Assembly: GCF_014203795.1 (NCBI RefSeq)
Contig: NZ_JACHJU010000001.1
Coordinates: 2,542,001-2,606,000 of the forward strand
Direction: 5' to 3'
From: Streptosporangium album
GTDB lineage: Bacteria; Actinomycetota; Actinomycetes; Streptosporangiales; Streptosporangiaceae
Length of the DNA: 64,000 nt
Position numbers and translations under genes: made by a program. Each line of letters opens with the position of its first letter. The first letter of the stretch is position 1. This document shows, piece after piece, positions 29,849 through 59,458 of this stretch. The notes below the pieces were generated by a model. The model ran no database searches. It was not told the origin of the DNA and worked only from the letters and a program-made list of their open reading frames with translations.

Positions 29849-30064
29849 GGACGTGCCGGCGGGGCGCTAGTGGCCCGTCTCTGAACGTTGGGGGGGGTAC
29901 TGATTAAGAAGGTCTGAGGTTACGGCGGTTCGAGACTCAAACCGGTCTCGGCGATGAACGCATTGAGCAGGTCGGGCTGGTACTGCAGGCGCTTGAGGTG
30001 GCTTTTCAGCAATACGGCGAGTGCGTCGACGCCGTGGATGGCGAGGTTGTAGATCTTGCTGTGG

Positions 30065-30287
30065 GTTCTCATTTGATCTGGCGAGGGCGACCTCGCCGAC
30101 CTGGGGCTCGCCAGTTGCGCGACAGGCCGAGGCGGTCGGTGCTTCTCATTCGATGTGGCGGATTCCCGGAAGGCGCATCGTCCGAAGGGCTATGACCGTG
30201 ACTGGCACGGTCCCTGGGCCGATGCTCGCCACATTAGGTGAGAACCAACGCCGCTTCGCCACCGGCTCCGCCAGATCACTTGAGAAC
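30065..30287. mobile_element. MITE-like block with two nested inverted repeats
   Basis: The outer repeat is GTTCTCATTTGATCTGGCG (30065-30083) and its inverted partner at 30269-30287, with two mismatches. An inner pair with a related sequence lies at 30142-30160 and 30227-30245. No coding sequence is present. The block sits within the IS630 type a transposase gene. Confidence 0.7.
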
Positions 30288-30708
30288 TCGCCACTTCGGC
30301 TGCGACCTCACACTTGCCCTTGAGATTGGCCCAGACCCCTTCGGTGGGATTGAGTTCAGGGGCGTACGGCGGCAGCCGGTAAACCAGCAGCCAGTCGGCA
30401 CGCGCGGCGATCCAGGCCTGCATCGGGGCGCTGACGTGCGCCGGGAGATTGTCCCAGACGACCATGATCGGGCCGCGGAGTTGCTGATGGGCGTCGGTGA
30501 GCAGAGCGGCGAAGTCGGCCGAGCCGAAGCCCTTCGGCTCGTGCTTGCGGCCGTGGTAGACGGTCGTCCGGTAGATCAATCTGGTTCGCTCGCCCGGCTT
30601 GACGCACAACAGCCCAGCGATCGAGACCCGGCCCGTTCCCCGCCCGGGCGCGGCCACGATCGGGGTCTGGCCGCGCCGGGCCCAGGTGCGGCCCTTGGGC
30701 GGCCTCAG

Positions 30709-32349
30709 CTTGTTCTTTAACCTCCGAGATCGCGTTTGGCAGCTAGGGACTTCGGTCGCTTGTTGACTTTCCCCAGGTCGTAGCGGGGAGCGCGGCGCTG
30801 GTTGTGGGAGCCGGGCGGACGTCCGGGGCCGGGCTTGCCGGGTTTGGGTGCACGGGCCGGACATGACGTTGCCGGGCGGATGTTCCGAAACCCTCGCCGT
30901 ACCCGGGCCGGGGTCAGCCGCCCGGGCAGGGCGGGTCTCTCCCACGGGCGGCGCAGATCCTCCACCAGATGCCGGGCCAGGCGCAGCTGGGTGTAGGCGG
31001 CGATGATCAGCCAGGTCCAGCGGTCGGCCGCCTCAGGGCTGCGGATCTTCGGCGCGGTCCAGCCCAGGGTCTGCTTCCAGAGCCGGAACGTATGCTCCAG
31101 GTCGAACCTGCGGAGGAACGCCTGCCACAACAGGTCGATCCGGGCGGCCGACAGGCTCAGGGCTGAGGACCACAGCCAGACCGGCCGGGGATGGGCGTCG
31201 CCTGGCAGCCGTTCCACGGTCAGCCGGATGAGCGTGCCCTCGATGATCGGCAGCTCGCCGTCGTGGTCGATCCAGGCGGCCCGGCGGGTGAGCTGATGAT
31301 GCAGCCGATCCCATGCGGTCGCGATCGCTGTGCCGTAGCGCGTCGTCTGGGTCGAGGTGGCCTGGTCAGGGCTGTGCCAGGTCGCCGGGTCGGCGAAGCG
31401 GAACGCGCCGCCATGCTTGGGCGGGCGGCCCCGGCGGGGCTGGCCAGGCAATGCTCACGGCGCGACGGCGCCGGACGGCGCAGCACCCGGTCTGAGCGGA
31501 GCCTGCCGAGCACCTCCACCGGTAGATCGGCTAGCAGGAAGGCCAGGCGGGGCAGATCGTAGCCGGCGTCGAACACCAGCAGGATGTCCGGATCACCCGG
31601 CCGCCACTGCCCCGCCTCGATCAGCCGGATGAGCAGGGCGCGGACCTGAGCGGCGGTCACGGCCGCCACATCGGCCTCGGCCTCCAGCCGCAGCGCATCC
31701 AGCACCTGAGTCCAGGAGGTCCGCCCCGTCTCCAGCGCGGCGATCACCGAGTACGGCCAGCCCGGGATCATCAGATGCTGATCCTTGCTGCGGCCGTAGG
31801 TATGGCAGAACGAACGGTCTGGGCTGGTGGCCGCATCCGGGCGCAGCCACGGGGACACATCCACCGCCGGCACCAGGCGTCCGCCCGCCGCCCTGGGCAG
31901 CGGCAGACCGGCCAGCGCCCGCCGGAACCTGCTGATCTCGATGCGGCCCTGGTTCAGCCCGCCGTACAAGGCGCCATGCCCGCGCCGGTGCTCGGGTGCC
32001 AGCGCCAGGTCCACCAGCGTCGTGACCGGCCCGGCGGTGCACAAGAGCGCTTCGGTTAGCTCGAACAGCTCATCGGCCCGAGCGGTCAGGCAGGCGTAGA
32101 ATTCGCTGCGGAAGCCCGACAACTCCGCCAGCGCTTCGGTACGGAGATCTTTCTGGTGCGCGTCTGGGCTGCATACCGCAGCGCGTGTCAGCATGGACCT
32201 CACGGCCACCGCCTTCATCTTGATGTCTTGGTAACTCGACGATGAGGCGGTGGCCACTTTCACGTCCAGCATCCGAGCCGTTACAGCCCGATATGTCGTC
32301 TGACATGGCTTAACGCAGTAAATGCGCAGTTCAGAGGTTAAACAACAAG
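30709..32349 (-). mobile_element. NF041680-type (IS701-like) element with 5-bp target duplication
   Basis: Inverted ends CTTGTT (30709) and AACAAG (ending 32349), continuing as related TTTAACCTC tracts, bound 1641 bp. The exact 5-bp duplication CTCAG (30704-30708 and 32350-32354) shows where it entered the IS630 type a transposase gene. Confidence 0.8.
30717..32272 (-). pseudogene. NF041680-like transposase in two frames
   Basis: The first frame (32272 to about 31450) reads ELSGFRSEFYACLTARADEL, GRLVPAVDVSPWLRPDAATS and ILLVFDAGYDLPRLAFLLAD. The second (31451-30717) continues PGQPRRGRPPKHGGAFRFAD, FDLEHTFRLWKQTLGW and IIAAYTQLRLARHL. Conserved Asp residues of a DDE transposase are visible. 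The break near 31450 is a single-base shift in a short sequence without a strong slippery motif, so it is probably a mutation, though programmed frameshifting is not excluded. Family naming is by resemblance. Confidence 0.65.
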
Positions 32350-33033
32350 CTCAGGCTCTGGCCCGATTCGTCGCAGAAGACGATCCAGGCGCCCCAGGCC
32401 GCCGCGGTCCTTTTAACGCCGACCACCGCCAACCTCTCCACGCGGTGATCTGCTCCTCATCGCGCTCGGCGGCCCGATGCACCGGCACCTGCGGCGACCA
32501 CCCTTGCCCGCGCAGCAGATAGGCCACCCCGCGCGCCGTGTACGACACCCGAAACAGCCTCTTGATCACAACGACGATGCGGGGCAGCGTCCAGCGCTGA
32601 TCGCTCCAGCCGTACGCGGCCGGGCCCCGCTCCAACTCCCACACCAGCCGATCAAGCTGATCAGCAGACAGCCGGCACACGTTGCCGCCAGGACCCTTGG
32701 ACGCCAGCGCGGCCTTGCCGCCGACCTCCCAGGTCCGACGCCACGCACACGCCGACTTACGAGTGACGCTCAACTCCCGCGCCACCTGCGGTGCGCTCAT
32801 CCCCCCGGCGAACATGTCCGCCGCCACGAAACGAAGCCGCTCCCGTTCAACACGGGCCCGCATCGACAGGCCCCCGCGATCCGAATACCTCATATTCCAG
32901 GTCTACAACCCACACGAACACGCCGCTCAACCGGCCACCCAGGCTCGCTTAACCTCAGACCTTCTTGATCAGTAATTGGCATCGGCGGGTGAGGCCCGTC
33001 AGGCTGTCTCCAGGACTCTTGCTGGAGGTGGTT

Positions 33034-34131
33034 GTGGCGCGTCGACCGGAAGTATTCGTCCGGCCGTTGTCGATGGAGGAAGGCCGCAAACTGCAGCGGA
33101 TCACCCGGACTGCCAAGGACCCGGTGAAACTGCGGCGGGCGATCGTGGTGATGATGTCCGGCCAGGGCCAACCGGTGCCGGACATCACCTCGTTGATGCA
33201 GGCCGGCGACGACTACGTGCGTGAGGTGATCCACGCGTTCAACGAGCGGGGGTTCGATGCGCTGGACCCAAAATGGAGCGGAGGCCGTCCACCGACGATC
33301 AGCAGCCAGGTGCGTGAGCGCATCTGCTTGATCGCCAAGACGGTCCCCGCCGAGTGGGGCATCACCGGGCACTCGACCTGGAGCCTGAAGACGCTGGCCG
33401 AGCATCTCATCGCCCGAGGGGTGGTGGCCTCCATCAGCCGCGAGCACCTGCGCAGGATCTTGCGTAAGGCCGGGGTGAGCTGGCAGAGCACCACCACCTG
33501 GAAGGCCTCCACCGACCCGCACTTCATCGCCAAGATGCAGCGCGTCCTGGAGCTGTACGACACCCCGCCCGCCGATGGGCGGGTGATCTGCGTTGATGAG
33601 TTCGGGCCGCTGAACCTGATGCCGCGTAAGGGCAAACGCTGGCGACCCGAGAGGTCACCGGCCCGGCTGCGGGCCACCTACAACCGCTATGACGGGGTGA
33701 TGCACATGCTCGCCGGCCTGGATCTGGCCACCGGCCAGCTGTTCTACCGGATCCGCAAACGCAAACGGTGGCGGGAGTTTTTGTCCTTCCTCAAGAGCTT
33801 GCGAGCTCGCTGGCCCGGCGAAACCCTATACGTGATCGCCGATAACTACTCGCCGCACAAACATCGCGAGGTCCGCACCTGGGCGGCCGACAACGATGTC
33901 GAGCTGGTGTTCTTGCCGACCTACGGCTCATGGCTGAACTGGATCGAATCCGAGTTCGCCGCCTTGCGCTACTACGCCCTGGGCGGCACCGACCATCGCA
34001 GCCACGCCGAGCAGAACGCCGCCATCGCCGGCTACATCCGATGGCGCAACAAACGCGCCCGCCCCAAGACCAGCTTCGCCGCCAGTTCACCCATCCGAAG
34101 CTGGACCAGTTATCCGGCCAGGGCTGCGTGA
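33034..34131 (+). CDS. IS630-family transposase (type b)
   Basis: The 365-residue protein has N-terminal helix-turn-helix repeats (IVVMMSGQGQPVPDITSLMQ) and a DDE_3 core with Asp in VICVDEFGPLNL, Asp in LYVIADNYSPHKH and Glu in GSWLNWIESEF. All three catalytic residues are present and the C-terminus is complete, so the enzyme may be active. A GTG at 33034 with GGAGG five bases upstream was chosen. Its promoter or leader was split from it by the 3-kb IS630 type a insertion, which may silence it or drive it from new sequence. Confidence 0.85.
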   Translation: MARRPEVFVRPLSMEEGRKLQRITRTAKDPVKLRRAIVVMMSGQGQPVPDITSLMQAGDDYVREVIHAFNERGFDALDPKWSGGRPPTISSQVRERICLIAKTVPAEWGITGHSTWSLKTLAEHLIARGVVASISREHLRRILRKAGVSWQSTTTWKASTDPHFIAKMQRVLELYDTPPADGRVICVDEFGPLNLMPRKGKRWRPERSPARLRATYNRYDGVMHMLAGLDLATGQLFYRIRKRKRWREFLSFLKSLRARWPGETLYVIADNYSPHKHREVRTWAADNDVELVFLPTYGSWLNWIESEFAALRYYALGGTDHRSHAEQNAAIAGYIRWRNKRARPKTSFAASSPIRSWTSYPARAA

Positions 34132-34289
34132 CGGGCCACTAGCAGCTCAACGTTGGCGACGCCCCTGATCACGTCCAACACCGACAGGCGCGGCGACGTG
34201 CGCGACGGCGACGACCGGATCCTGCGGCACAGGTCCGGCCTGTCTGACCGGTGCTTCCCGGCGGACGCTGCCTGACCGCGATTGATCCT

Positions 34290-35402
34290 ATGGTCGCGCT
34301 CATGACACAGAACACATCCGTCGTCCCATTCCGTATCAACGTCGCGCAGGCCGAACTCGACGCCCTGCGGGACCGTCTGGCCCAGACGCGCTGGCCCGGC
34401 GAACTGCCCGGTGTCGGCTGGAGCCGGGGCACGCCGGTGGCCCACGCCAGGGAGCTGGTCGAGCACTGGCTCACGGGCTTCGACTGGCGGGCGCAGGAAC
34501 GCAGGCTGAACGAGCTGCCGCAGTTCACGACCGTCATCGACGGACAGACCATCCACTTCGCGCACATCCGTTCGGATGATCAAGGTGCGCTGCCGTTGCT
34601 GCTCCTGCACGGCTGGCCCGGCTCGTTTGTCGAGTTCCTCGACGTGATCGAACCGTTGACCAAGGAGTTCCATCTGGTGATCCCCTCGCTCCCCGGGTTT
34701 GCGTTCTCGACGCCGCTGGCCGAGCCCGGCTGGACGGCCGCCCGCATGGCCGGGGCGTTCGTCGAACTCATGGCCGTGCTCGGTTATGAGAGGTACGGGA
34801 TTCAGGGCGGCGACACCGGCGCGTTCGTCGCTCCGGAGATGGGCCACCTCGCCCCCGAGCGCGTCGTCGGCATCCACCTCAACGGCGTCCTGTCATTCCC
34901 GGCGGGAATTGAGGGAGAGGACGCGCAGCTGTCCGAGGCGGAGCGGCAGCGCTCGGCGGAGCTGGAGGAGGCCACCGCCGGCTACGTCCCCATCCAGTCG
35001 CGATCGCCGCAGACGCTCGCGTTCGGCCTGACCGACTCGCCGGTCGGACAGCTGGCGTGGATCGCCGAGATCTTCCACCGGTGGGCGGGCACTTCCATCG
35101 ACCGTGACCGGTTCCTGACCAATGTCAGCGTCTACTGGCTGACGGGCACCGCGGGTTCCTCGGCCCAGATCTACTACGAGCAGGTGAACGACCCGATGGC
35201 ATGGGTGCCCAAGCCGCGCGGCACCGTGCCCACGGGCGTGCTGCTCGCCGGGTCGCACGAGTACGGCATCCGGCCCTACGCGGAGCGCGACCACACCATC
35301 GTGCACTGGTCGCAGAAGGACAACGGCGGGCATTTCTTCGCCATGGAGGAGCCCGAGGTGTTCGCCGAGGACGTGCGGCGGTTCTTCGAGAACCTCATGT
35401 GA
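34290..35402 (+). CDS. Epoxide hydrolase (EHN plus alpha/beta hydrolase)
   Basis: The product of about 370 residues begins with an epoxide-hydrolase N-terminal domain ([40 protein letters not shown]). The alpha/beta-hydrolase core has [13 protein letters not shown] (oxyanion HGWP) and [14 protein letters not shown], where Asp is the nucleophile. The C-terminal histidine is in [13 protein letters not shown]. This is the full microsomal-type epoxide hydrolase layout. ATG codons at 34290 and 34302 are both possible. It is one of three non-IS genes inside the array and may form an operon with the regulator downstream. Confidence 0.85.
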
Positions 35403-35456
35403 GGTCGACGGCATTCGCGGTCATTTCCTGACCGCGATCGGTGCCACCATCGTCGG

Positions 35457-36413
35457 GTGTTGGAAACCTCGGCTCGGCTGCTCCGTCTGCTCGCGTTGCT
35501 CCAGGCTCACCGCGACTGGTCGGGGACGGAGCTGGCCGAGCGTTTCGGGGTGAGCCCACGAACCGTCCGCCGCGACATCGACAAACTGCGGATTCTGGGC
35601 TATCCGATCAACGCGGTCGGCGGCGTCGGCGGTGGCTACCGGCTGCGCGCCGGTGCCTCGCTGCCCCCGTTGCTGCTCGACGACGAGGAGGCGGTCGCGG
35701 TGGCGGTCGGGTTGCGCACGGCGGCCAGCGGCGCGATCACGGGCATCGCCGAGACCTCGGTGCGGGCGCTGGCCAAGCTGGACCAGGTGCTGCCCTCGCG
35801 GCTGCGCCACCAGGTCGACACCCTCGGCTCGGCCGTGGTGATCATGCCGATGCCCGGCCCCACGGTCGATCCGTCGACGCTGATCGCGATCGCCTCGGCG
35901 GTGCGCAACCACGAACGGCTGCGCTTCGACTACGTCTCGCATGACGGCTCGGCGACCGTACGGGACGTGGAACCGTATCGACTGGTCCAGAACGGGCGGC
36001 GCTGGTACCTCTTCGCCTGGGACACCGGCAGGTCGGACTGGCGGAGGTTCCGGGCCGACAGGTTGTCGTTGCGTATCCCCACCGGACCCCGGTTCGGCCC
36101 GAGACCGCTACCCGCCGAGGACCTGGCCGACTACTTTCCCACGGGGCCGACCGCGAACGGCCACCGCTACCGGGCGGTGCTCACCATGTACGGCTCGGCC
36201 GCGGAGGTGGCCGGGGAGGTGCCGCCCACGCTCGGTGTGGTGGAACCCGTCGATGATCACACCTGTACCCTGCGCATCGGCTCGGACAGTCTCGACCATC
36301 TCGCGGTGTGGGTGGCCGCGTTCGGCTTCGAGTTCGACGTCCACGAGCCGCCCGAGCTGGTAGAGCACCTTCGCACGTTGTCCGCCCGCCTGCAGCGGGC
36401 CGCCTGGCCGTAG
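35457..36413 (+). CDS. YafY-type regulator (HTH plus WYL domain)
   Basis: The 318-residue protein has an N-terminal HTH_11 domain (ARLLRLLALLQAHRDWSGTE, VSPRTVRRDIDKLRILGYPI) and a WYL domain (VEPYRLVQNGRRWYLFAWDT), followed by a WCX-like C-terminal region. Such proteins bind DNA and sense nucleic-acid or small ligands; many repress adjacent genes. The start is GTG. It follows the epoxide hydrolase by 54 bp in the same direction. Confidence 0.85.
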   Translation: MLETSARLLRLLALLQAHRDWSGTELAERFGVSPRTVRRDIDKLRILGYPINAVGGVGGGYRLRAGASLPPLLLDDEEAVAVAVGLRTAASGAITGIAETSVRALAKLDQVLPSRLRHQVDTLGSAVVIMPMPGPTVDPSTLIAIASAVRNHERLRFDYVSHDGSATVRDVEPYRLVQNGRRWYLFAWDTGRSDWRRFRADRLSLRIPTGPRFGPRPLPAEDLADYFPTGPTANGHRYRAVLTMYGSAAEVAGEVPPTLGVVEPVDDHTCTLRIGSDSLDHLAVWVAAFGFEFDVHEPPELVEHLRTLSARLQRAAWP

Positions 36414-36431
36414 AGAGGAACTTTTGGACCT

Positions 36432-37529
36432 GTGGAAATCCTGACCCGCCGACATCTCAACCGGGCGACGCTGGAGCGGCAACTGCTGCTGCGCCGGACG
36501 GACGCCTCCGCTCTGCAGGTGATCGAATGCCTGGTCGGCCTGCAGGCACAGGATCCCGACCCGCCGTACGTGGGGCTGTGGACCCGGAGCGCGGGCTTCC
36601 ATCTCGACGATCTGACCCGGCTGCTGCACCAGCGCAAGGTGGTACGGGCGACGCTGTTCCGGGGGACCCAGCACCTGGTCACCGCCGACGACTACCTGTG
36701 GGTTCGACCGCTGTTGCAGCCGATGCTGGACCGCTGGCAGAAAGGAGCCTTCGGCGGGTCCACCGCCGGGCTGGACCTCGCCGAGCTGACCGCCGCGGCG
36801 CGGGCGATCCTCGGTCAGGGCACGGTGAGCAGGCCCGAGCTCGGCAGGGCACTGGCCGAACGGTGGCCCGGACGCGACCCGATCGCACTGGCCCGATCCG
36901 CGCAGGGCCTGCTGCCGATAGTGCACCCGCCGCCCGACGGCACCTGGGGACGGCGCGGCACGACCCCCTTCGCGCTCGCCGACCAGTGGCTCGACCGGCC
37001 TCCGGCCGAAGAACCGTCAGCGCGGGAGCTGGTCCTGCGCTACCTCGCGGCGTTCGGCCCGGCCTCGGTCAAGGACATCCAGGCATGGAGCGGAATGACC
37101 CGGCTGCGCGAAGTGGTCGAACCGCTTCGACCGCAGTTGCGCATCTTCCAGAACGAGGCGGGAGGAGAGCTGTTCGACCTTCCCGACGCGCCACGGCCCG
37201 ACCCGGACGTTCCCGCGCCGGTCCGTTTCCTGGCCGCACTCGACAACGTCGTGCTCGCCTATGCCGATCGGACCCGCATGATGGCCGACGAGCGACGCAA
37301 GCACACCATCGTCGAGGCGGCGATGACCGTGGACGGCTTCGTGCGCGGGCTCTGGGCCGTCAAACGTGGCAAGGAGAGTACGGCGACGCTGGTCGTCAAG
37401 CTCTTCGAACCCCTGGGCAGACGGGACGAGGCCATCGTGACCGAGGAGGGCGCCCGCCTGTTGTGCTTCGCGGCCGCCGACGCCGACGACCACGACATCC
37501 GCTTCCACTCCGTCGACGGCGGCCGCTGA
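36432..37529 (+). CDS. Winged-helix DNA-binding protein, AlkZ-like (HTH_42)
   Basis: The 365-residue protein has several tandem winged-helix units, with HLNRATLERQLLLRRTDASA, CLVGLQAQDPDPPYVGLWTR and ATLFRGTQHLVTADDYLWVR. This matches the HTH_42 family that includes AlkZ/YcaQ DNA glycosylases that remove crosslinks and alkylated bases. The Q-x-Q catalytic motif of AlkZ appears as LQAQD. Many relatives of this clade are uncharacterised, so the enzyme role is inferred. A GTG start lies 18 bp after the regulator gene. The IS630 end fragment begins 27 bp past its stop. Confidence 0.75.
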   Translation: MEILTRRHLNRATLERQLLLRRTDASALQVIECLVGLQAQDPDPPYVGLWTRSAGFHLDDLTRLLHQRKVVRATLFRGTQHLVTADDYLWVRPLLQPMLDRWQKGAFGGSTAGLDLAELTAAARAILGQGTVSRPELGRALAERWPGRDPIALARSAQGLLPIVHPPPDGTWGRRGTTPFALADQWLDRPPAEEPSARELVLRYLAAFGPASVKDIQAWSGMTRLREVVEPLRPQLRIFQNEAGGELFDLPDAPRPDPDVPAPVRFLAALDNVVLAYADRTRMMADERRKHTIVEAAMTVDGFVRGLWAVKRGKESTATLVVKLFEPLGRRDEAIVTEEGARLLCFAAADADDHDIRFHSVDGGR

Positions 37530-37556
37530 TCGCGGACGACGCCCGCGAGCGCCCCT

Positions 37557-37658
37557 GGTCGACGCGCCACAACCACCTCCAGCAAGAGTCCTGGAGACAG
37601 CCTGACGGGCCTCACCCACCGATGCCAATTACCCCGCCAACGTTCAGAGACGGGCCAC
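37557..37658 (-). mobile_element. Truncated inverted copy of the IS630 type b left end
   Basis: About 100 bp repeat, in inverted orientation, the leader of the type b IS630 (29870-29897 joined to 32975-33045). TA at the interruption point is intact here, so this copy shows the uninterrupted sequence and confirms the insertion site of type a. With the left end at 29867 it forms a 25-bp inverted repeat around the three cargo genes. Confidence 0.85.
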
Positions 37659-37661
37659 TAG

Positions 37662-39075
37662 TAGGGCTTGGTTACCTCGGGTAGGGGACGGTATGTCACC
37701 TGTTTGGGGGTGAGGGAAGATGACCCCTCAAGAACTCGAGGCCGTGCGGGCGCGGCTGGAGACGTTTGCCGCTGAGATGTTCTCCGGTTTCGCCCGTGCT
37801 GATCAGCGGCGGTGGGGCGAGCGGTATGTGCGCGGCCTGCTGACCGACGGGGCACGGAAATCGATGGAGCCGATGGCGGCCCGGCTGGGCGTGGATCGCC
37901 AAGGGCTGCAGCAGTTCTGCACCGATGCCCCCTGGGCGCATCAGCTGGTTTTGGCCGAGCTGGCCTGGCGGATGGATGCGGCGATCAACCCGGTGGCATG
38001 GGTGGTCGATGATGTGTCCTTTGTCAAGGACGGCCAGGAGTCGCCGGGGGTGGCCGCGCAGTATTGCGGGGCGCTGGGCAAGACCGCGAACTGCCAGGTC
38101 GCGCCGAGCGTGCATCTGGTCACCGACGCCGCCTCCTGCCCGGTGAACTGGCGGTTGTTCGTGCCCGAGCAGTGGGATGCGGCCTCGCCGCGCACGGAGG
38201 ATCCGGCCGCGGTGGCGGCACGCCGGCAGCGCTGCCGGATCCCCGCCGACGTCGGTCATGTGCCCAAGTGGCAGCTGGCTCTGGACATGATCGACGAACT
38301 GGAGAGTTGGGGGCTGGATCCGCCGTTGGTGGTCGCCGATGAGGGCTACGGTCAAGACGGGGCCTTTCGCCTGGGCCTGACCGAGCGCGATATTCCCTAC
38401 GTGGTGGGGGTGCGTTCCGATACCGCGCTGCTGGAGGCCGAGGCCTGCCGCAGCGTCGCGCCGTATGCGGGGACCGGGCGGCGGCCGGTGCCCCGCTACC
38501 GGCAGCGGCGCATCAGCGCCCGGCAGTTGGTGCTGGAGGGCGGGCGGCGCGCGCTGCACACAGTGCGGTGGCGGATGGGGTCCAAGGGGCCGTTGCGCTC
38601 GCGCTTTGCCGCGCTGCGGGTACGGCCGGCGGGCGTGCGGATCCGCCGCGCGTATGCGGGCGGGGAGTTGCCGGTGTGCTGGCTGCTGGCCGAATGGCCG
38701 CCCGGTGAGCCGGAGCCGGTCAAGTACTGGTTGTCCACGCTGGAGGCCGATGTTCCATTGCGGCGTCTGGTGGGTCTGGCGAAGATCCGCTGGCGCATCG
38801 AGCACGACTACCGTGAGCTGAAGACCGGCCTGGGCCTGGACCACTTCGAGGGTCGCACGTGGAGCGGTTGGCATCATCACGTCACCCTGGTCTCGGTCGC
38901 TCACGCGTTCTGCACCCTTGAAAGGCTCAACCCAAAAGCGCCGGCTGCGGCTTGAGCACCTACCGGGTCATCGCCGAGTTGCAGCTGCTTCTGGCCTGCT
39001 GGGCCGGTATCTGCCCCACCTGCCGCCGCGCGTTACCCAGACATGCCCAGCCCGTCCCCACCTAACCAAGCCCTA
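37662..39075 (+). mobile_element. IS701-family element type A, copy 1
   Basis: Terminal inverted repeats TAGGGCTTGGTTA and TAACCAAGCCCTA bound about 1.41 kb, with CTAG directly outside each end. The reading frame of the transposase is intact. Confidence 0.9.
37720..38955 (+). CDS. IS701-family transposase, type A copy 1
   Basis: The 411-residue protein has IS701/IS4-like features: INPVAWVVDDVSFVKDGQES (first Asp region), DPPLVVADEGYGQDGAFRLG (second Asp) and KIRWRIEHDYRELKTGLGLD (Glu of the Y(2)R(3)E(6)K box). GTGAGGGAAG precedes the ATG. It is identical in sequence to copy 4 at 55103. All catalytic residues are present, so it may supply transposase to the other A copies. Confidence 0.92.
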   Translation: MTPQELEAVRARLETFAAEMFSGFARADQRRWGERYVRGLLTDGARKSMEPMAARLGVDRQGLQQFCTDAPWAHQLVLAELAWRMDAAINPVAWVVDDVSFVKDGQESPGVAAQYCGALGKTANCQVAPSVHLVTDAASCPVNWRLFVPEQWDAASPRTEDPAAVAARRQRCRIPADVGHVPKWQLALDMIDELESWGLDPPLVVADEGYGQDGAFRLGLTERDIPYVVGVRSDTALLEAEACRSVAPYAGTGRRPVPRYRQRRISARQLVLEGGRRALHTVRWRMGSKGPLRSRFAALRVRPAGVRIRRAYAGGELPVCWLLAEWPPGEPEPVKYWLSTLEADVPLRRLVGLAKIRWRIEHDYRELKTGLGLDHFEGRTWSGWHHHVTLVSVAHAFCTLERLNPKAPAAA

Positions 39076-50354: not shown

Positions 50355-51382
50355 TGGGCAAGACCGGAAACTGCCAGATCGGCGTCAGCGCACATCTGGT
50401 CACCGATCATGCCTCGTCCGCGGTCAATTGGCGGCTGTTCATCCCCGAGTCGTGGGACCCGGCCAAGATCGAGGATCCGGTTCAGGCGGAAACGGTCCAC
50501 AAGCGCCGCGACCGGTGCAAGATCCCTCAGGACGTCGGTCACCAGGAGAAGTGGCGACTGGCGTTAAACATGATCGACCAGATGTACGACGAGTGGGGAG
50601 TCGGCACCGATCTTCCGGTGGTCTTTGACTCCGGTTATGGCGATTGCACCGCTTTCCGGCTGGGACTGGAGGACCGCGGCCTGTCTTACGTGGCGGCCGT
50701 CTCCGATGATCTGTCGGCCTACCCCGGAGATGCGGTGCCTGAACTGCCGGAGTACAGCGGCAAGGGGCGCCCGCCGAGACCACGCTATCCAGGCAAGCCA
50801 TCGAATCTGCGCAATCTCGCATTGGCGGCAGGGCGGGCGAATCTGCGGCGGGTGACCTGGCGGCAAGGCACAAGGAAGACCAGCGGTAATCCGGGCGCGA
50901 AAATGCGATCACGCTTCATGGCTCTACCGGTTCTCTTGGCCAACAAAGACATCCCCCGCAACCCCGACGGCAGCCTGCCTGCGCGTTTGCTGCTGGTGGA
51001 ATGGCCGGCAGGCGAATCCGAACCCACCGATTACTGGATCACCAATCTCCCCGCCGAGACTCCGCTGCGCGAACTCGTCCGGCTCGCCAAGATCCGCTGG
51101 CGGATCGAGCATGACTACCGGGAGCTCAATACCGGTCTTGGCCTCAAGCATTTTGAGGGGCGGAGCTTCTTCGGCTGGCACCGCCACGTCACCCTGGCCG
51201 CATTAGCGCAGGTATTCTGTACCGAACTACGGCTAGACCCAAAAGTCCCTGCGCCGGCCTGACCTTGTATGAGGTTCTCGGCGAACTCCAGGCTTTACTC
51301 GCCACCTGGACCGGCGCTTGCCACGTATGCCATCAAATGTACGCGCCCCATAACACTTCGTAACTTAACGAAGTACTACTAG

Positions 51383-52796
51383 TAGGGCTTGGTTACCTCG
51401 GGTAGGGGACGGTATGTCACCTGTTTGGGGGTGAGGGAAGATGACTCCTCAAGAACTCGAGGCCGTGCGGGCGCGGCTGGAGACGTTTGCCGCTGAGGTG
51501 TTCTCCGGTTTTGCCCGTGCTGATCAGCGGCGGTGGGGTGAGCGGTATGTGCGCGGCCTGCTGACCGATGGAGCGCGTAAATCGATGGAGCCGATGGCGG
51601 CCCGGCTGGGCGTGGACCGCCAAGGGCTGCAGCAGTTCTGCACCGATGCCCCCTGGTCGCATCAGCTGGTTTTGGCCGAGCTGGCCTGGCGGATGGACGC
51701 GGCGATCAACCCGGCCGCCTGGGTGGTCGATGATGTGTCCTTTGTCAAGGACGGCCAGGAGTCGCCGGGCGTGGCCGCGCAGTATTGCGGGGCGCTGGGC
51801 AAAACCGCGAACTGCCAGGTCGCGCCGAGCGTGCATCTGGTCACCGACGCCGCCTCCTGCCCGGTGAACTGGCGGCTGTTCGTGCCCGAGCAGTGGGATC
51901 CGGCCTCACCGCGCACGGAGGATCCGGCCGCGGTGACGGCACGCCGGCAGCGCTGCCGGATCCCCGCCGACGTCGGTCATGTGCCCAAGTGGCAGCTGGC
52001 TCTGGACATGATCGACGAGCTGGAGAGTTGGGGGCTGGATCCGCCGCTGGTGGTCGCCGATGAGGGCTACGGTCAAGACGGGGCCTTTCGCCTGGGCCTG
52101 ACCGAGCGCGATATTCCCTACGTGGTGGGGGTGCGTTCCGATACCGCGCTGCTGGAGGCCGAGGCCTGCCGCAGCGTCGCGCCGTATGCGGGGACCGGGC
52201 GGCGGCCGGTGCCCCGCTACCGGCAGCGGCGCATCAGCGCCCGGCAGTTGGTGCTGGAGGGCGGGCGGCGCGCGCTGCACACAGTGCGGTGGCGGATGGG
52301 GTCCAAGGGGCCGTTGCGCTCGCGCTTTGCCGCGCTGCGGGTACGGCCGGCGGGCGTGCGGATCCGCCGCGCGTATGCGGGCGGGGAGTTGCCGGTGTGC
52401 TGGCTGCTGGCCGAATGGCCGCCCGGTGAGCCGGAGCCGGTCAAGTACTGGTTGTCCACGCTGGAGGCCGATGTTCCATTGCGGCGTCTGGTGGGTCTGG
52501 CGAAGATCCGCTGGCGCATCGAGCACGACTACCGTGAGCTGAAGACCGGCCTGGGCCTGGACCACTTCGAGGGTCGCACGTGGAGCGGTTGGCATCATCA
52601 CGTCACCCTGGTCTCGGTCGCTCACGCGTTCTGCACCCTTGAAAGGCTCAACCCAAAAGCGCCGGCTGCGGCTTGAGCACCTACCGGGTCATCGCCGAGT
52701 TGCAGCTGCTTCTGGCCTGCTGGGCCGGTATCTGCCCCACCTGCCGCCGCGCGTTACCCAGACATGCCCAGCCCGTCCCCACCTAACCAAGCCCTA
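51383..52796 (+). mobile_element. IS701-family element type A, copy 3 (mosaic)
   Basis: Same ends and CTAG boundaries as the other A copies. Its 5' third shares variants with copy 2, while the 3' two thirds match copies 1 and 4. Confidence 0.9.
51441..52676 (+). CDS. IS701-family transposase, type A copy 3
   Basis: The 411-residue protein is intact. It reads PWSHQLVL and INPAAWVV like copy 2, then SVAPYAGTGRRPVPRYRQRR like copies 1 and 4. WDPASPRTEDPAAVTARRQR combines variants. The pattern indicates recombination or gene conversion between A copies. Confidence 0.9.
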   Translation: MTPQELEAVRARLETFAAEVFSGFARADQRRWGERYVRGLLTDGARKSMEPMAARLGVDRQGLQQFCTDAPWSHQLVLAELAWRMDAAINPAAWVVDDVSFVKDGQESPGVAAQYCGALGKTANCQVAPSVHLVTDAASCPVNWRLFVPEQWDPASPRTEDPAAVTARRQRCRIPADVGHVPKWQLALDMIDELESWGLDPPLVVADEGYGQDGAFRLGLTERDIPYVVGVRSDTALLEAEACRSVAPYAGTGRRPVPRYRQRRISARQLVLEGGRRALHTVRWRMGSKGPLRSRFAALRVRPAGVRIRRAYAGGELPVCWLLAEWPPGEPEPVKYWLSTLEADVPLRRLVGLAKIRWRIEHDYRELKTGLGLDHFEGRTWSGWHHHVTLVSVAHAFCTLERLNPKAPAAA

Positions 52797-52799
52797 CTA

Positions 52800-54035
52800 G
52801 TGCTCCGTTCCTCAAAGGCTGTAGACGAACTGGCGGCGTAGGTGTCTGGGGGCCGGTGGTGGCCGTCCCCAGACCCAGGGTTTGGCCCGCTGGTTGAGCT
52901 GGGCGGTGGCGATGCGGGTGGCGTGGTCGATGTCCTTGCTATCAGCGAAGGACACTCCGGCCAGGGCATGGTGGCGGAAGATCCGCCACCACGCCTCCTG
53001 CAGATTGAGCCAGCAGGCGCCGACCGGGATGAACGCGTGCTGGATGCGGGGATGGTCGGCCGGCCATGTGCGGGTGGCGAGGCTGTTGTGACCGGACAGG
53101 TTGTCGGCGATCACCCAGATGTCACCGTGGCCGGGGTTGGCGTCCTCGAGTCGTTGCAGGAACCGCTGGTAGCAGTCGCTGTTGCGGGAGGCGGCGGTCA
53201 TGGTGACCGCGGCGCCGTCGGCGACGCGCAGCGCACCGTACACCCAGGTCTTGTCGGGGCCGCGGAAGTATTCCAGCGGCGCTTTGATCCGGTGGCCGTC
53301 GGCGGACCAGGCGGGCGCGGGGCCGAAGGTACGCGGGGTCACCGGCCCCAGCTCGTCGGCGCAGACGACGACCGCGCCGTCCGGCGGGTCGGTGTACAGG
53401 CCGACGACCTGCGTTCTTTTGCGGCGAAGTCCGGGTCCTTGCTGGTGGTCCAGGACCGGGTGCGGCGCCATCTCACCCCCTCTTTCAGAAGGATCCGGCG
53501 CACCTGGGAACGGTGAATGTCGATGCCCTGCTCACGGGCGGCGGCGGTGAGGGCATCCAGGGTCCACACCGCCGGCCCATCCTCGTCGTCGGCCTCCAGC
53601 TCACCCCAGGGCTCCCAGCGCAGCCGCCCGGGCGGTGTCGTCTTGACCAGCGCGATGAGCCGCGATCGTTCGGCTTGGGTGATCCGCGGTCTGCGACCGG
53701 GCCCGGGCCGGTCACCGAGCCCGTCGATGCCTTCGGCGTTGAAGCGGCGCAACCGGCGGCGCACGGTCTCCGGATGACAGCCCAGCATCGCGGCGATGGC
53801 CGGGCCGCGCATCTCCTCCCAGCTCAACACGACGATCTGGGCGCGCTGGATCCAGTCGGCCGGGGCGTGCCGGGCACCGGCGAGTTTACGGATCTGGCGT
53901 TCCTCCTCGCCGTCTCGCGGCGCTCGAGCGTGCAGCAGTTTCGGCATGATGACACCACCTCCCTGTCATCCACGATGCCCCTGATCAGGATGGCTGGCCA
54001 CCGCTCAGCTCAACACCCTTTGAGGAACCCAGCAC
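52800..54035 (-). mobile_element. IS630-family element type c, copy 2
   Basis: An inverted copy of the type c element with the same ends and TA/CTAG junctions. It differs from copy 1 by scattered single bases. Confidence 0.88.
52812..53947 (-). CDS. IS630-family transposase type c copy 2, two frames
   Basis: The frames 53947-53339 and 53471-52812 have the same order and the same A-AAA-G overlap as copy 1. A few residues differ (KTTPPG for KTIPPG, QRLEDA for QRVEDA, NLSGHN for NLSSHN), none in the frameshift window. Confidence 0.8.
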
Positions 54036-54038
54036 TAG

Positions 54039-55040
54039 ACGATTGAGTCCAAGGGATCGCCTGCGAAAATAGGGCGAGGGCGTTCAAGATCCGTTTGTGA
54101 CGACAGAACTGAACACCCTCGCAACCGCACTCTATGTCAAGATCGACGACGCGGTGAAGGCATCGCCGGACCTGCTGCCATGGCGGCCGAAAACGGGGAT
54201 CGCACCCGCCCTCAGCGACGCCGAACTCGTGACACTGGCGGTGATGTCGGCTCTGCTGGGCTTCACCTCCGAGCGGCGCTGGGTGCGCTATGCCCACACC
54301 GAACTGAGGGACATGTTTCCTTACCTGCCCGGGCAGTCCGGGTACGGAAAGCGGCTACGCAAAGCGTCCGGCCTGGTCCTGCACATGATCAGGATGCTGG
54401 CCGCCGACACCTCGCTGTGGAGCGACGACGTGTGGCTGGTCGACTCCACGCCGGTGGAGTGCGGCCGATCCCGGGAGACGGCCAAGCGCAGCGATCTGGC
54501 CGGGTGGGCGCAGTACGGCTACTGCGCGTCCCACTCGCGGTACTTCTGGGGATTGCGGCTGCACCTGTTGTGCACCCTGGGCGGGCTGCCGATGGCGTTC
54601 GCGCTCACCGGCGCCAAGGCCGACGAGCGCGAGACCCTGCTCGGGATGCTGGATTCGGCACCCGAGATGGTGGCCGCCCGTCCCGGTCAGACGATCATCG
54701 CGGACAAGAACTACTACGGCCGCGCCTTCGAGCAGGCCCTCACCGAGCGTGACCTGAGGCTGCTGCGCCCAGCCCGCAAGGGTGAGCCCGAGCGGGCCGG
54801 AGCACGCTTGTTCAAGCCGTTGCGGCAGACCATCGAGTCGATCAACCAGACCTTCAAGGGCCAGCTCGACCTGGAACGACACGGTGCCCGTACTCCTGCT
54901 GGCGTCATCATCCGCGTACTGACACGGATCCTGGCACTGACCGCCGCAATCTGGCACAACGACAAGACTGGACAACCGATCAAGCGATCCCTGATCGCCT
55001 ACGACCACTAACTGTGACCGAAGCCCTTGGACTCAATCAT
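54039..55040 (+). mobile_element. IS982-family element
   Basis: Near-identical inverted ends (ACGATTGAGTCCAAGGG and the complement of ATGATTGAGTCCAAGGG) bound about 1.0 kb, with CTAG on both sides. A CTAG duplication is therefore possible but cannot be separated from the neighbouring elements' own CTAG. Confidence 0.8.
54097..55011 (+). CDS. IS982-family transposase
   Basis: The 304-residue protein reads MTTELNTLATALYVKIDDAV at the start. The DDE core follows: SDDVWLVDSTPVECGRSRET (first Asp), GQTIIADKNYYGRAFEQALT (second Asp) and ETIESINQTFKGQLDLERHG-type Glu region. Start GTG; length is normal and the frame intact. Confidence 0.85.
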   Translation: MTTELNTLATALYVKIDDAVKASPDLLPWRPKTGIAPALSDAELVTLAVMSALLGFTSERRWVRYAHTELRDMFPYLPGQSGYGKRLRKASGLVLHMIRMLAADTSLWSDDVWLVDSTPVECGRSRETAKRSDLAGWAQYGYCASHSRYFWGLRLHLLCTLGGLPMAFALTGAKADERETLLGMLDSAPEMVAARPGQTIIADKNYYGRAFEQALTERDLRLLRPARKGEPERAGARLFKPLRQTIESINQTFKGQLDLERHGARTPAGVIIRVLTRILALTAAIWHNDKTGQPIKRSLIAYDH

Positions 55041-55044
55041 CTAG

Positions 55045-56458
55045 TAGGGCTTGGTTACCTCGGGTAGGGGACGGTATGTCACCTGTTTGGGGGTGAGGGA
55101 AGATGACCCCTCAAGAACTCGAGGCCGTGCGGGCGCGGCTGGAGACGTTTGCCGCTGAGATGTTCTCCGGTTTCGCCCGTGCTGATCAGCGGCGGTGGGG
55201 CGAGCGGTATGTGCGCGGCCTGCTGACCGACGGGGCACGGAAATCGATGGAGCCGATGGCGGCCCGGCTGGGCGTGGATCGCCAAGGGCTGCAGCAGTTC
55301 TGCACCGATGCCCCCTGGGCGCATCAGCTGGTTTTGGCCGAGCTGGCCTGGCGGATGGATGCGGCGATCAACCCGGTGGCATGGGTGGTCGATGATGTGT
55401 CCTTTGTCAAGGACGGCCAGGAGTCGCCGGGGGTGGCCGCGCAGTATTGCGGGGCGCTGGGCAAGACCGCGAACTGCCAGGTCGCGCCGAGCGTGCATCT
55501 GGTCACCGACGCCGCCTCCTGCCCGGTGAACTGGCGGTTGTTCGTGCCCGAGCAGTGGGATGCGGCCTCGCCGCGCACGGAGGATCCGGCCGCGGTGGCG
55601 GCACGCCGGCAGCGCTGCCGGATCCCCGCCGACGTCGGTCATGTGCCCAAGTGGCAGCTGGCTCTGGACATGATCGACGAACTGGAGAGTTGGGGGCTGG
55701 ATCCGCCGTTGGTGGTCGCCGATGAGGGCTACGGTCAAGACGGGGCCTTTCGCCTGGGCCTGACCGAGCGCGATATTCCCTACGTGGTGGGGGTGCGTTC
55801 CGATACCGCGCTGCTGGAGGCCGAGGCCTGCCGCAGCGTCGCGCCGTATGCGGGGACCGGGCGGCGGCCGGTGCCCCGCTACCGGCAGCGGCGCATCAGC
55901 GCCCGGCAGTTGGTGCTGGAGGGCGGGCGGCGCGCGCTGCACACAGTGCGGTGGCGGATGGGGTCCAAGGGGCCGTTGCGCTCGCGCTTTGCCGCGCTGC
56001 GGGTACGGCCGGCGGGCGTGCGGATCCGCCGCGCGTATGCGGGCGGGGAGTTGCCGGTGTGCTGGCTGCTGGCCGAATGGCCGCCCGGTGAGCCGGAGCC
56101 GGTCAAGTACTGGTTGTCCACGCTGGAGGCCGATGTTCCATTGCGGCGTCTGGTGGGTCTGGCGAAGATCCGCTGGCGCATCGAGCACGACTACCGTGAG
56201 CTGAAGACCGGCCTGGGCCTGGACCACTTCGAGGGTCGCACGTGGAGCGGTTGGCATCATCACGTCACCCTGGTCTCGGTCGCTCACGCGTTCTGCACCC
56301 TTGAAAGGCTCAACCCAAAAGCGCCGGCTGCGGCTTGAGCACCTACCGGGTCATCGCCGAGTTGCAGCTGCTTCTGGCCTGCTGGGCCGGTATCTGCCCC
56401 ACCTGCCGCCGCGCGTTACCCAGACATGCCCAGCCCGTCCCCACCTAACCAAGCCCTA
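55045..56458 (+). mobile_element. IS701-family element type A, copy 4
   Basis: Same ends as copy 1. The right CTAG (56459-56462) overlaps the stop codon of the adjacent glycoside hydrolase gene. Confidence 0.9.
55103..56338 (+). CDS. IS701-family transposase, type A copy 4
   Basis: The 411-residue protein is identical to copy 1 throughout, which points to a recent duplication or transposition. All catalytic regions are present. Confidence 0.92.
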   Translation: MTPQELEAVRARLETFAAEMFSGFARADQRRWGERYVRGLLTDGARKSMEPMAARLGVDRQGLQQFCTDAPWAHQLVLAELAWRMDAAINPVAWVVDDVSFVKDGQESPGVAAQYCGALGKTANCQVAPSVHLVTDAASCPVNWRLFVPEQWDAASPRTEDPAAVAARRQRCRIPADVGHVPKWQLALDMIDELESWGLDPPLVVADEGYGQDGAFRLGLTERDIPYVVGVRSDTALLEAEACRSVAPYAGTGRRPVPRYRQRRISARQLVLEGGRRALHTVRWRMGSKGPLRSRFAALRVRPAGVRIRRAYAGGELPVCWLLAEWPPGEPEPVKYWLSTLEADVPLRRLVGLAKIRWRIEHDYRELKTGLGLDHFEGRTWSGWHHHVTLVSVAHAFCTLERLNPKAPAAA

Positions 56459-59458
56459 CTAGCTGTAGATACCGAACTCGTAGAGCGAGTAGCCGTACGC
56501 CGTGCCGCGCTGGGTGAGGTTCAGCCGGACGTATCTGGCCGACGTGTTGAGGTCGATGACGTCGAAGCCGCCGTCACCGGCCGTGGTCGAGTAGGGGGTG
56601 CTCCAGTCCGAGCCGTTGGCCGAGGTCTGGAGCTGGTACGCCTTGCCGTACGCGCTCTCCCAGCCGAGCTGGACACGCTTGATCGCGGTGGACGTGCCGA
56701 GGTCCACCTGGAGCCACTGCGGGTCGGCCCACTCGCTGGCCCAGCGGGAGGTGAAGCTGCCGTCGGTGGCCCGGTCGGGGGTGAACGGGCCGCCGTCGCC
56801 CGTCGCCTGGTAGGTGGAGGCGGTGGTCGGCTTGCCGAGCGCCACGTTGGTCCCGTCGACCGCAGGCGGGACCACGCGGAACGACCGCTGCTCGATGCCG
56901 GCGTTGCCGTGCCCGTCGAAGGCGTACACGTACACCTTCCACACGCCCATCTGCTCCGGCGCGGTCACCGAGAATCTGCCGGGACCGGTCTGGGTGAACC
57001 TGACGTTGTCGAGGCCGCGGTTGCCGTTGACGTGCTTGTTGCTGAACATCAGGTTGTAGCGGATCAGGTCGCTGTTCGGGTCGGACGCGGCGACATCGAC
57101 GGTGAAGGTCTTGCCGGCCTGGACGGCGGTCTGCGAGCCGACCGTCATCGAGGTGATCTCCGGGGGCGTGTTCGCCGAGGGCTGTCCGGTGTAGGCCGCT
57201 CTGAGCGAGTGGTAGCCGTGCCTGCGCCAGCCGCCGGTGGTGGTGTTGAGCCACACCCCGCCGAAGTCGTTCTCCAGGCCGTAGTGGAATTCGGTCGCGC
57301 CGAGCGCGACGCCCGTGTGTCCCTTGATCGCGTTCCAGCTGGCGGTGTACTGGTCCCGCTTCTGCAGATCGGTCGGCTCATTGGGGACGCCGTTGACGTC
57401 GCCTGGCACCTCCCACTCACCGTCGGGTCCCGCCTCGGTGACGATGTACGGCTTGGTGTACCCGCCGTTGATCCAGTCCTGCTTGACCGTGTGGATGGCG
57501 CCGTAGGAGTTGACCGCGAGCAGGTCCAGGGCCGGGGAGTGGGTCTTGTAGTAGGTCCAGGCGTGGGTGTAGGCGTCGGTGGAGGTGACCGGGTGGTTGG
57601 GGTCGGCGGTGTGGATCGCCTGCGCCACCTCGTTGACGAACTTCGCGTACGCCACCCGCCGCTGCTCGACCACGTCGGCCGGCAGGCCGTGGTCCTGCAT
57701 GGTGAGGATGACCTCGTTGCCGACGTCCCACATGAGCACGCCCTGGCGGCCCTTGAGGGCGTTGACCCGGGCGACGATCTCGTTCTTCACGCTGGTCTTG
57801 TAGGCGGTGTCGTTGACGTAGTCGGCGCCCTGGTTGAGCCAGTGCCCGACGATGACCTTGATGCCCTGCTGGGCGGCCCTGTCGATCAGCGTCGGGGTGT
57901 TGGTGTCGTCGACGCCCCAGATGCGGATCGTGTTGACGCCCATGGCCGCAAGATCGCGCATGTAGCCGTCGGCCGCGGCCTGCGGCGGGCCGTAGGTCAG
58001 CCCCTTGACCTGGTACGGCGCGCCGTTCACCTGGAGCTGCCAGCTGCCCTGCGAGCCGGTCACCCTGACCGTGCTCGGCCCGGCAGGGGTCGCCGGGTCG
58101 GTCATGGCGGCGGGGACGGTGCCGGTCTGCCTGGAGACCGAGACCTTGTCCACGCTCAGCACGCCGCCGGAGGAGGTGGCGGCGGCCGGCGTCGTGGCGC
58201 CCGCGAGCGCGTTGGGCAGCGAGCCGCCGATGGCCAGGTCGAGGCGGAGGTAGAAGCCGTGGTGCAGGGCGGCGTTCCAGGCGGCGACGCCGACCTGGCT
58301 CTCGCGCACGACCCAGGTCTGCCTGCCGTCGAGGTAGAAGCGGACCTCCTCGTCGGTCTTGGTCCGGTCGATGACCTGGCTGTACTCGTGGTACCCGCTC
58401 TGACAGCCCTCGCAGGTGGCGAAACCGCTGGTGCGGCCGTTGTACTCGTTGCACACCCCGTCGGGGGCGGTGCCGCAGTGCAGGGTGTTGGCCAGCTGGT
58501 CGCGGCCGTTGACGCCGGTCATGATGTCGGTCTCGCCGACGGACGGCCAGTTGTTGTAGTTGCCCCGGTAGGCGGCGCCGGTCGCCCGGAAGCCGGGCCA
58601 GTAGCCCAGGGGATTGGTGACGTCGGGCTGCTTGAGCCGGGCGCTGAACCTGAGCATCTCACCCGGCTTCGGCTCGAAGTCGGTGCGCTGGGTCTCGATC
58701 CGGCCGGAGGTCCAATTGCCGGCGCCGTCCTTGATCGCCTTGATGGTCAGGTTGCCGGTGCCGTCGAGGGAGACGTTGGCGGTCGAGGCGCTCATGGTCT
58801 CGACCTCGCCGGTACCCCACTTCGCGGCGCCGCCGGGGTACTGGGTGCCGGTGCGCAGGATCCAGTCGGCGGCCGAGGGTGAGGTTCCCGCCGAGCCGGT
58901 GAAGTCGTCCTTCCACACCTCGGTCCAGGTGTCGGGCTCCTCGGGCTCCCCGCCGGTGCCCAGGTGGCCGTAGATCTGGAACTCCCACAGCGAGTAGCCG
59001 TAGCCGATGCCGCGAACGGTGCCGTACATGCGGACGTACCGGCCGGTGCCGGTCACGTCCAGTGTCTGGGTGCCGCCGGTGCCGGTCGTGGTCGAGTAGA
59101 TGTCGGTCCATGACGAGCCGTTGTCGGAGACCTGGAGTTTGAACGCCTTGCCGTAGGCGGCCTCCCAGGTCAGCACGGCCCGGCTGATCGTCGCCGTCCC
59201 TCCCAGGTCGACCTGGAGCCACTGCGGGTCGCTGAACGAGCTGGCCCACCGGGTGCCCGTCAGATTTCCGTCGACCGCCGCCGCCGCGCTGTAGGCGGCG
59301 CCCTCGGACGACGAGGCCGTCGCCGCCTTGCCCTGCGACAGCAGACCGTCGGCCGCCGCCACCGGGCTGATGAGTGCCAGACCGGAAATGGCCAGGCTCG
59401 CCAGAACGGCGATGACCAGGCCTAACCGGAACCGGCCCGAACTACGAGCTGGATGCAC
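56459..59458 (-). CDS. Secreted multi-domain glycoside hydrolase (CBM32, GH16-like, TIM barrel, CBM32)
   Basis: The 999-residue protein starts with a signal peptide (to about residue 36). A discoidin/F5/8 type C (CBM32-like) domain follows (about 37-165). Next comes a GH16-like domain (about 180-430), where SVGETDIMTGVN fits the E-x-D-x-x-E active-site box except that the last Glu is Thr. A GH5/GH2-like TIM barrel (about 455-745) has VLMWDVGNEV and YIVTEAGPDGEW, which supply two Glu. After a beta-sandwich region (about 755-860) a second F5/8 domain ends the protein. It should bind and cleave an extracellular polysaccharide. GAGGAGA precedes the GTG start. Its stop lies in the CTAG of IS701-A copy 4. 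Confidence 0.85.
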   Translation of the reverse strand: MHPARSSGRFRLGLVIAVLASLAISGLALISPVAAADGLLSQGKAATASSSEGAAYSAAAAVDGNLTGTRWASSFSDPQWLQVDLGGTATISRAVLTWEAAYGKAFKLQVSDNGSSWTDIYSTTTGTGGTQTLDVTGTGRYVRMYGTVRGIGYGYSLWEFQIYGHLGTGGEPEEPDTWTEVWKDDFTGSAGTSPSAADWILRTGTQYPGGAAKWGTGEVETMSASTANVSLDGTGNLTIKAIKDGAGNWTSGRIETQRTDFEPKPGEMLRFSARLKQPDVTNPLGYWPGFRATGAAYRGNYNNWPSVGETDIMTGVNGRDQLANTLHCGTAPDGVCNEYNGRTSGFATCEGCQSGYHEYSQVIDRTKTDEEVRFYLDGRQTWVVRESQVGVAAWNAALHHGFYLRLDLAIGGSLPNALAGATTPAAATSSGGVLSVDKVSVSRQTGTVPAAMTDPATPAGPSTVRVTGSQGSWQLQVNGAPYQVKGLTYGPPQAAADGYMRDLAAMGVNTIRIWGVDDTNTPTLIDRAAQQGIKVIVGHWLNQGADYVNDTAYKTSVKNEIVARVNALKGRQGVLMWDVGNEVILTMQDHGLPADVVEQRRVAYAKFVNEVAQAIHTADPNHPVTSTDAYTHAWTYYKTHSPALDLLAVNSYGAIHTVKQDWINGGYTKPYIVTEAGPDGEWEVPGDVNGVPNEPTDLQKRDQYTASWNAIKGHTGVALGATEFHYGLENDFGGVWLNTTTGGWRRHGYHSLRAAYTGQPSANTPPEITSMTVGSQTAVQAGKTFTVDVAASDPNSDLIRYNLMFSNKHVNGNRGLDNVRFTQTGPGRFSVTAPEQMGVWKVYVYAFDGHGNAGIEQRSFRVVPPAVDGTNVALGKPTTASTYQATGDGGPFTPDRATDGSFTSRWASEWADPQWLQVDLGTSTAIKRVQLGWESAYGKAYQLQTSANGSDWSTPYSTTAGDGGFDVIDLNTSARYVRLNLTQRGTAYGYSLYEFGIYS

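Follow-up and report, generated by a model that had tools for sequence, protein, structure and literature searches.

Unrelated insertion sequences stacked end to end at single CTAG sites in the genome of Streptosporangium album

A 64-kb window (G000:C1:2542001-2606000) of the Streptosporangium album genome (9.02 Mb, assembled as 14 contigs) contains, at positions 29867 to 56462, an array of insertion sequences (ISs) of the IS701, IS630 and IS982 families joined by single CTAG tetranucleotides. We read the array as a stack of ISs from unrelated families that all duplicate CTAG, likely grown serially, with newcomers entering the CTAGs at the edges of earlier elements (probability of about 0.7). 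Direct observations comprise the joints made of one CTAG, the use of CTAG as target throughout the genome, further stacks both elsewhere in this genome and in another species of the genus (genome G181), and a single CTAG lacking the array in a same-genus genome (G083). A preference for CTAG was already known for IS630 and IS5; stacking across families, the size of the bias toward element boundaries and the nested ISAzo13-family element are new. The array provides a countable case of IS cluster growth, in which a rare tetranucleotide, found mostly outside coding sequence, serves elements without common ancestry, is restored by each insertion and lets the elements accumulate at one another's edges. 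It also makes the long-standing question of targeting versus tolerance at IS hotspots directly testable.

Organization of the array

The array begins with a unit bounded by the element IS630b (29871 to 37657) and continues with ten blocks (37658 to 56462) in the order IS701-A, X1, IS701-A variant, X2, IS630c, X3, IS701-A, IS630c, IS982 and IS701-A. Neighbors among these ten are separated by exactly CTAG and nothing more. X denotes an IS701 element of a second type (IS701-C) with a 1,759-bp ISAzo13-family element interrupting its transposase gene. Between 29867 and 56462 there are 27 CTAGs, 13 of them at block boundaries (29867, 34139, 37658, 39076, 42295, 43714, 46922, 48160, 51379, 52797, 54035, 55041 and 56459) and 14 internal (two in each of the three IS701-C copies, two in each of the three ISAzo13 copies, and those at 30743 and 31531 in the first unit). 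The initial annotation had described elements joined end to end by single CTAGs, 13 of which bounded the blocks; it was right about the joints and overlooked the ISAzo13 insertions and the IS630b-bounded cargo unit.

The first of the ten blocks, IS701-A copy 1 (37662 to 39075, plus strand; transposase at 37720 to 38955), is followed by X1 (39080 to 42294, plus; ISAzo13 element at 39511 to 41269), an IS701-A variant of 90.8% identity (42299 to 43713, minus; transposase at 42419 to 43654) and X2 (43718 to 46921, minus; ISAzo13 element at 44743 to 46490, 11 bp shorter). Next are IS630c (46926 to 48159, plus), X3 (48164 to 51378, plus; ISAzo13 element at 48595 to 50353), an IS701-A of 98.4% identity (51383 to 52796, plus), IS630c of 99.5% identity (52801 to 54034, minus), IS982 (54039 to 55040, plus; transposase at 54097 to 55011) and an IS701-A 100% identical to copy 1 (55045 to 56458, plus). 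The CTAG at the right edge of the array (56459 to 56462) supplies the TAG stop codon of a minus-strand frame ending at 56459.

Element families were assigned with NCBIfam and Pfam models. Two IS701-A copies scored 402 (copy 1) and 416 bits with the IS701 model NF033540 (cut-off, 150) and a split IS701-C half scored 177 bits, while the transposases of IS630b (202 bits; cut-off, 100), IS982 (177 bits; cut-off, 130) and the ISAzo13 element (546 bits; cut-off, 200) exceeded the cut-offs of their families. Both types of IS701 show 4-bp target duplications, with CTAG, CTTA or ATAG on both sides of A and CTAG or CTAA on both sides of C. The two IS630 copies within the ten-block run are one element, IS630c, and the IS630 transposase at 32965 to 34131 belongs to a different element, IS630b. 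The transposase of IS630c at 46926 to 48159 is spread over two overlapping frames (47013 to 47621 and 47489 to 48148), and two IS630c frames gave 86 and 104 bits with the IS630 model, a single frame being above the cut-off of 100. Programmed frameshifting is a trait of this family and would account for the overlapping frames.

CTAG as a genome-wide target

Element ends were located by exact searches for terminal sequences, which miss inexact ends; copies outside the fetched stretches are known from these searches alone. The initial annotation had named the flanks of genome-wide copies beforehand as the test of a preference for CTAG, and the outcome is in its favor: CTAG adjoins 95 of 111 ends of five element types in this genome when the four outer bases are read. 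The matches comprise 39 ends of IS701-A (35 CTAG, 2 CTTA/TAAG and 2 ATAG), 24 of IS701-C (20 CTAG and 4 CTAA/TTAG), 28 of IS630c (22 CTAG, 4 GTAG, 1 CTAT and 1 CTGG), 18 of IS982 (16 CTAG and 2 CGAG) and 2 of IS630b (both CTAG). Exceptional copies of IS701-A, IS701-C and IS982 carry an identical CTTA, ATAG, CTAA or CGAG on both sides, and the tetranucleotide therefore belongs to the target and not to the element. The same 4 bp occur at both outer edges of all 26 catalogued runs, and are CTAG in 21, in a catalogue that omits copies with unequal or truncated edges (e.g., loci L104, L120 and L126). IS630 elements had been proposed to sit on TA, with their terminal G and C rebuilding CTAG. IS630c copies flanked by GTAG...CTAC and GTAG...CTAG (including L120 and L126) fit this proposal, but one IS630b copy in G181, with ATAG on both sides, is a better fit to a 4-bp duplication.

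The nearest relatives of IS701-A in other actinomycetes show like target behavior. Such relatives were found at 29 loci (Streptomyces and Streptosporangiales) and their ends were placed in 18, of which 13 have CTAG on both sides, two have CTAG beside imperfect ends (L187 and L189) and one each has TTAG, ATAG and CTAG/ATAG.

The expectation that CTAG is rare was borne out in a background sample of 20 stretches of 20 kb picked by position (400 kb). It contains 84 CTAGs (0.21/kb), and the observed/expected ratio of 0.26 (trinucleotide expectation) is the lowest of all palindromic tetramers. A home-made codon score placed 73 of these CTAGs. One cut-off gave 23 stop codons, 40 intergenic sites and 10 sites in gene interiors, and a stricter cut-off gave 19, 48 and 6, respectively. 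Of random positions, 81% or 75% fell in gene interiors, depending on the cut-off. In IS-rich regions, 85 of 116 CTAGs are intergenic, 16 are in stop codons and 15 are interior. As CTAG is mostly non-coding or part of a TAG stop codon, a CTAG-specific element mostly misses gene interiors. In ordinary DNA, gene interiors were hit at 1 or 3 of the 19 sites that hold a solitary element or an array in this genome and at none of six in G083. Enrichment of stop codons at solitary sites was unsupported (9 of 25, versus 19 or 23 of the 73 CTAGs). CTAG is comparatively safe to hit, likely offering a harmless landing, and this may have favored one target common to unrelated families.

Recurrence of stacks

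Joints were scanned for in the fetched parts of this genome as two known element ends exactly four bases apart. The 33 rows obtained represent 32 distinct places, all CTAG, of which ten are inside the window and 24 lie between ends of four core types (IS701-A, IS701-C, IS630c-type and IS982-type). Joints of an element F on CTTA or CTAA, and joints between an element D and IS630c that are two bases short, were not counted. Same-element joints are scarce among the 32 (none between two IS701-A or two IS701-C ends, one between two IS982 ends and one IS630c-like pair), in numbers too small to interpret.

Stacks also occur in G181, a different species. Ten IS701-A copies in this genome show 0 differences over 1,415 bp and are all flanked by CTAG on both sides, and nine or ten of them abut another element. 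The partner is IS630b at seven joints, an IS982-like end at one, an IS630c relative at another (L276) and a putative IS630-like end at the last (L280). An eleventh, older copy (L285) adjoins no recognized element.

The right flank of the array is present in G083 at 95%, and a single CTAG lies there between sequences matching both array edges. The left match beside this CTAG is about 46 bp long and forms a terminator-like hairpin. The array is absent from G083, yet a second difference adjoins the site.

Excess of joints at element edges

An insertion at CTAG would duplicate its target and leave fresh CTAGs at the element edges, and later elements could enter the edge CTAGs of earlier ones. On these grounds the initial annotation had suggested that the array can serve as its own landing pad, with the rarity of CTAG focusing insertion there. 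This idea agrees in kind with the recurrence of arrays, but new CTAGs and rarity together fall short in number. In a simulation of 60 sequential insertions (approximately the number of core copies), uniform over 1,894 CTAGs and repeated in 4,000 runs, a mean of 1.8 joints (maximum, 9) was obtained, versus the 24 observed for core types, so that element boundaries would have to be preferred or tolerated in some further way. Counted out to a distance of 5 kb, 64 unoccupied non-IS CTAGs surround the 26 runs, and just two pairs of runs lie that close together at different CTAGs. In addition, none of the 57 CTAGs inside core-element and ISAzo13 copies is interrupted. Because free neighboring and internal CTAGs are hardly used, edge CTAGs appear to be favored. 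They would be preferred rather than merely best tolerated, and the end of a resident element or its bound transposase could draw insertions, a putative attraction that we favor over selection for neutral sites.

Several observations weigh against serial growth at preferred edges. No joint was found at any of the six IS701-A copies in G083, all of which lie outside IS sequence (five are flanked by CTAG at both ends, and the sixth has CTAT/CTAG); G083 is poor in other CTAG elements, with one broken IS630b, and its joint-free copies may just reflect a shortage of edges. One IS701-A is inserted at an internal CTAG of an element E (L105). Occupied sites have no wider target consensus (21 sites), and A+T-rich or easily melted DNA was rejected as a cause of the preference (A+T content of the 10-bp flanks, 0.316 at occupied sites [n = 25] versus 0.386 at free CTAGs [n = 81]), so that no sequence cause was found. 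Joints are uniform in look, and single joints could stem from recombination between copies. At the array-free site, approximately 1.46 kb of G083 sequence beyond the 46-bp match has no counterpart, a 94% match picking up again at window position 29789. Finally, the distinction between genes and non-genes relies on the home-made score.

Alternative origins of the joints

Edge attraction competes mainly with selection for neutral sites: insertion at CTAG would be uniform, harmful insertions would be lost and element edges would be the truly neutral sites. We regard it as unlikely. The simulated mean rises to 3.5 joints with 947 sites, 9.9 (maximum, 21) with 300 and 22 with 100, and the observed number could thus be approached if some 100 sites were tolerated; intergenic insertions, moreover, are able to break promoters. 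However, 63 to 67 of the 73 placed CTAGs are outside gene interiors, so the number of tolerated sites should be well above 100, and with 300 sites the simulated numbers are already too low. Other sites are tolerated, as 25 runs are placed in ordinary DNA (19 here and 6 in G083), and the CTAGs within dead X copies should be as neutral as edges, yet are unused.

Composite movement or recombination, by which a small number of joints formed a single time and were later multiplied as blocks, is improbable. Near-identical copies could recombine, and duplications of >10 kb do occur in this genome, as L235 and L237 show (regions G000:C1:3678000 and C7:168000, on two contigs, which have in common a 100% identical duplication of 10 kb or more). 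Nevertheless, joint types, orientations and outer flanks vary, and the seven joints of IS701-A with IS630b in G181 use all four end combinations, which speaks against their having moved as a single unit.

Regional permissiveness or local hopping would collect elements in the same kilobases, the joints following from CTAG specificity. Mixed-family hotspots are known, at which new ISs enter IS-rich places and several families share a hotspot (PMC9208149), and joints with one common target copy are not described in section 8 of that source. This explanation is very improbable here, given 64 free CTAGs within 5 kb and only two neighboring insertions at other CTAGs versus 32 joints. An assembly artifact, in which repeats were joined at short overlaps, is scarcely credible despite identical copies and repeats of >1 kb, as stacking recurs in the independently assembled G181 and the window lies inside a 4.93-Mb contig with outer flanks that match G083.

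An ISAzo13-family passenger in IS701-type genes

The ends of the ISAzo13 element were found 30 times in the genome, corresponding to 15 copies (including loci L234 to L237). Every copy lies at the same conserved codon motif in a transposase gene of IS701 type, and none was found outside such genes. Eleven copies interrupt IS701-A or IS701-C at the homologous site, where CTGGG is repeated, and those in C occur in either orientation. A twelfth splits a third gene of IS701-like type (DNA identity, about 70%) and a thirteenth a distant one (22 to 33% protein identity), both between the same codons, and the last two represent one duplicated locus, of which the right half alone is recognizable. A genome-wide count of the motif, CTGGGC-N11-STGCCAGRT, gave 34 occurrences, versus one for a reversed control; by coordinate, 13 occurrences are beside the ISAzo13 element and 21 are in uninterrupted IS701-A or IS701-C copies.

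Four of the seven X copies have common changes at C positions 825 and 966 and the ISAzo13 element in the same orientation; the changes are found in none of five intact C copies. These private changes indicate that the interrupted lineage has multiplied, and they disfavor independent insertion into every X copy as far as these four are concerned; the other three could have arisen by independent insertion. The split lineage has probably been moved in trans by transposase that intact copies supply.

Relatives of the ISAzo13 element were found in 24 other genomes of 249 searched (best identity, 53%). At 28 such foreign loci, tblastn of the flanking DNA, in most cases as far as 1.5 kb on each side, detected no IS701-A or IS701-C relative, which marks IS701-type targeting as a trait of this element and not of the ISAzo13 family. 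These relatives were set aside as controls for targeting: among four same-genome pairs, the flanks of L201 and L223 are clearly unrelated and two pairs have a common block running well past the element.

Repetitive extragenic palindromic (REP) sequences and dif/pdif sites are reportedly defined IS targets. The ISs concerned are likewise site specific, whereas the ISAzo13 element targets a codon motif in the transposase genes of another family. A wider proposal, tentative and at slightly under even odds, combines both phenomena: resident IS edges may be recognized across families, one CTAG insertion seeding a self-extending pad, and the ISAzo13 element may home to the 26-bp IS701-type motif, silence its host and ride it to new CTAGs, on transposase from intact copies, as a transposon hyperparasite. 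The ISAzo13 element would then be an example of an IS specialized on the transposase gene of another IS.

Comparison with known elements

IS630 is said, in work by Tenzen and Ohtsubo from 1990 and 1991, to prefer TA within CTAG, and array elements resemble it in the IS630-family transposase and the CTAG site. The target of the IS701 family is YTAR. In one study, the IS701-family elements ISGka1 and ISGka2 produce duplications of 4 to 9 bp without consensus (PMC8024623), and CTAG specificity is thus not general in the family; they have the transposase family in common with array elements but are unlike them in CTAG specificity. The target of IS5 is given as PyTAPu, mostly CTAG, with CTAA, TTAG and CTTA as minor sites (PMC5493358), and the array elements are alike in their 4-bp duplication, in CTAG as the commonest site and in these minor sites. 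IS5 was proposed in that source to require easily melted DNA, whereas in this genome A+T is no more abundant at occupied CTAGs than at free ones. Neither CTAG stacks that span families nor an IS that targets another IS within its transposase gene turned up in a literature search judged mostly from result listings.

The IS630b-bounded unit and minor elements

The left part of the array, which starts with the CTAG at 29867 to 29870, contains IS630b (29871 to 34138, plus; transposase at 32965 to 34131) with a nested element of ~3.1 kb near its left end (about 29897 to 32973, with imperfect inverted repeats). Beyond the CTAG at the right end of IS630b (34139 to 34142) are 3.4 kb of other genes (34143 to 37556, plus), identified with Pfam as encoding an epoxide hydrolase, a WYL-domain regulator and an AlkZ-like DNA glycosylase. 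The unit is closed by a 101-bp inverted remnant of the left end of IS630b (37557 to 37657, minus), with inverted matches of 98.7% to 32972 to 33047 and 96.7% to 29867 to 29896. The segment from 29871 to 37657 looks like, and may be, a composite transposon at CTAG.

In the short joints between IS630c and element D (L105, L120 and L126), CTA stands straight before CGGTGG. Element D beside IS701-A retains CTAGT, unlike D beside IS630c, and contains a minus-strand frame that is putatively IS701-like by eye. A 573-bp element with IS630-like ends and no transposase lies between CTAGs at L121:12247-12819; its frame has a weak resemblance to SnoaL that does not reach the Pfam cut-off. Elements E (75 to 81%) and F (99.9%) have additional copies in background stretches, at L301:17754-19543 and L307:12916-14577.

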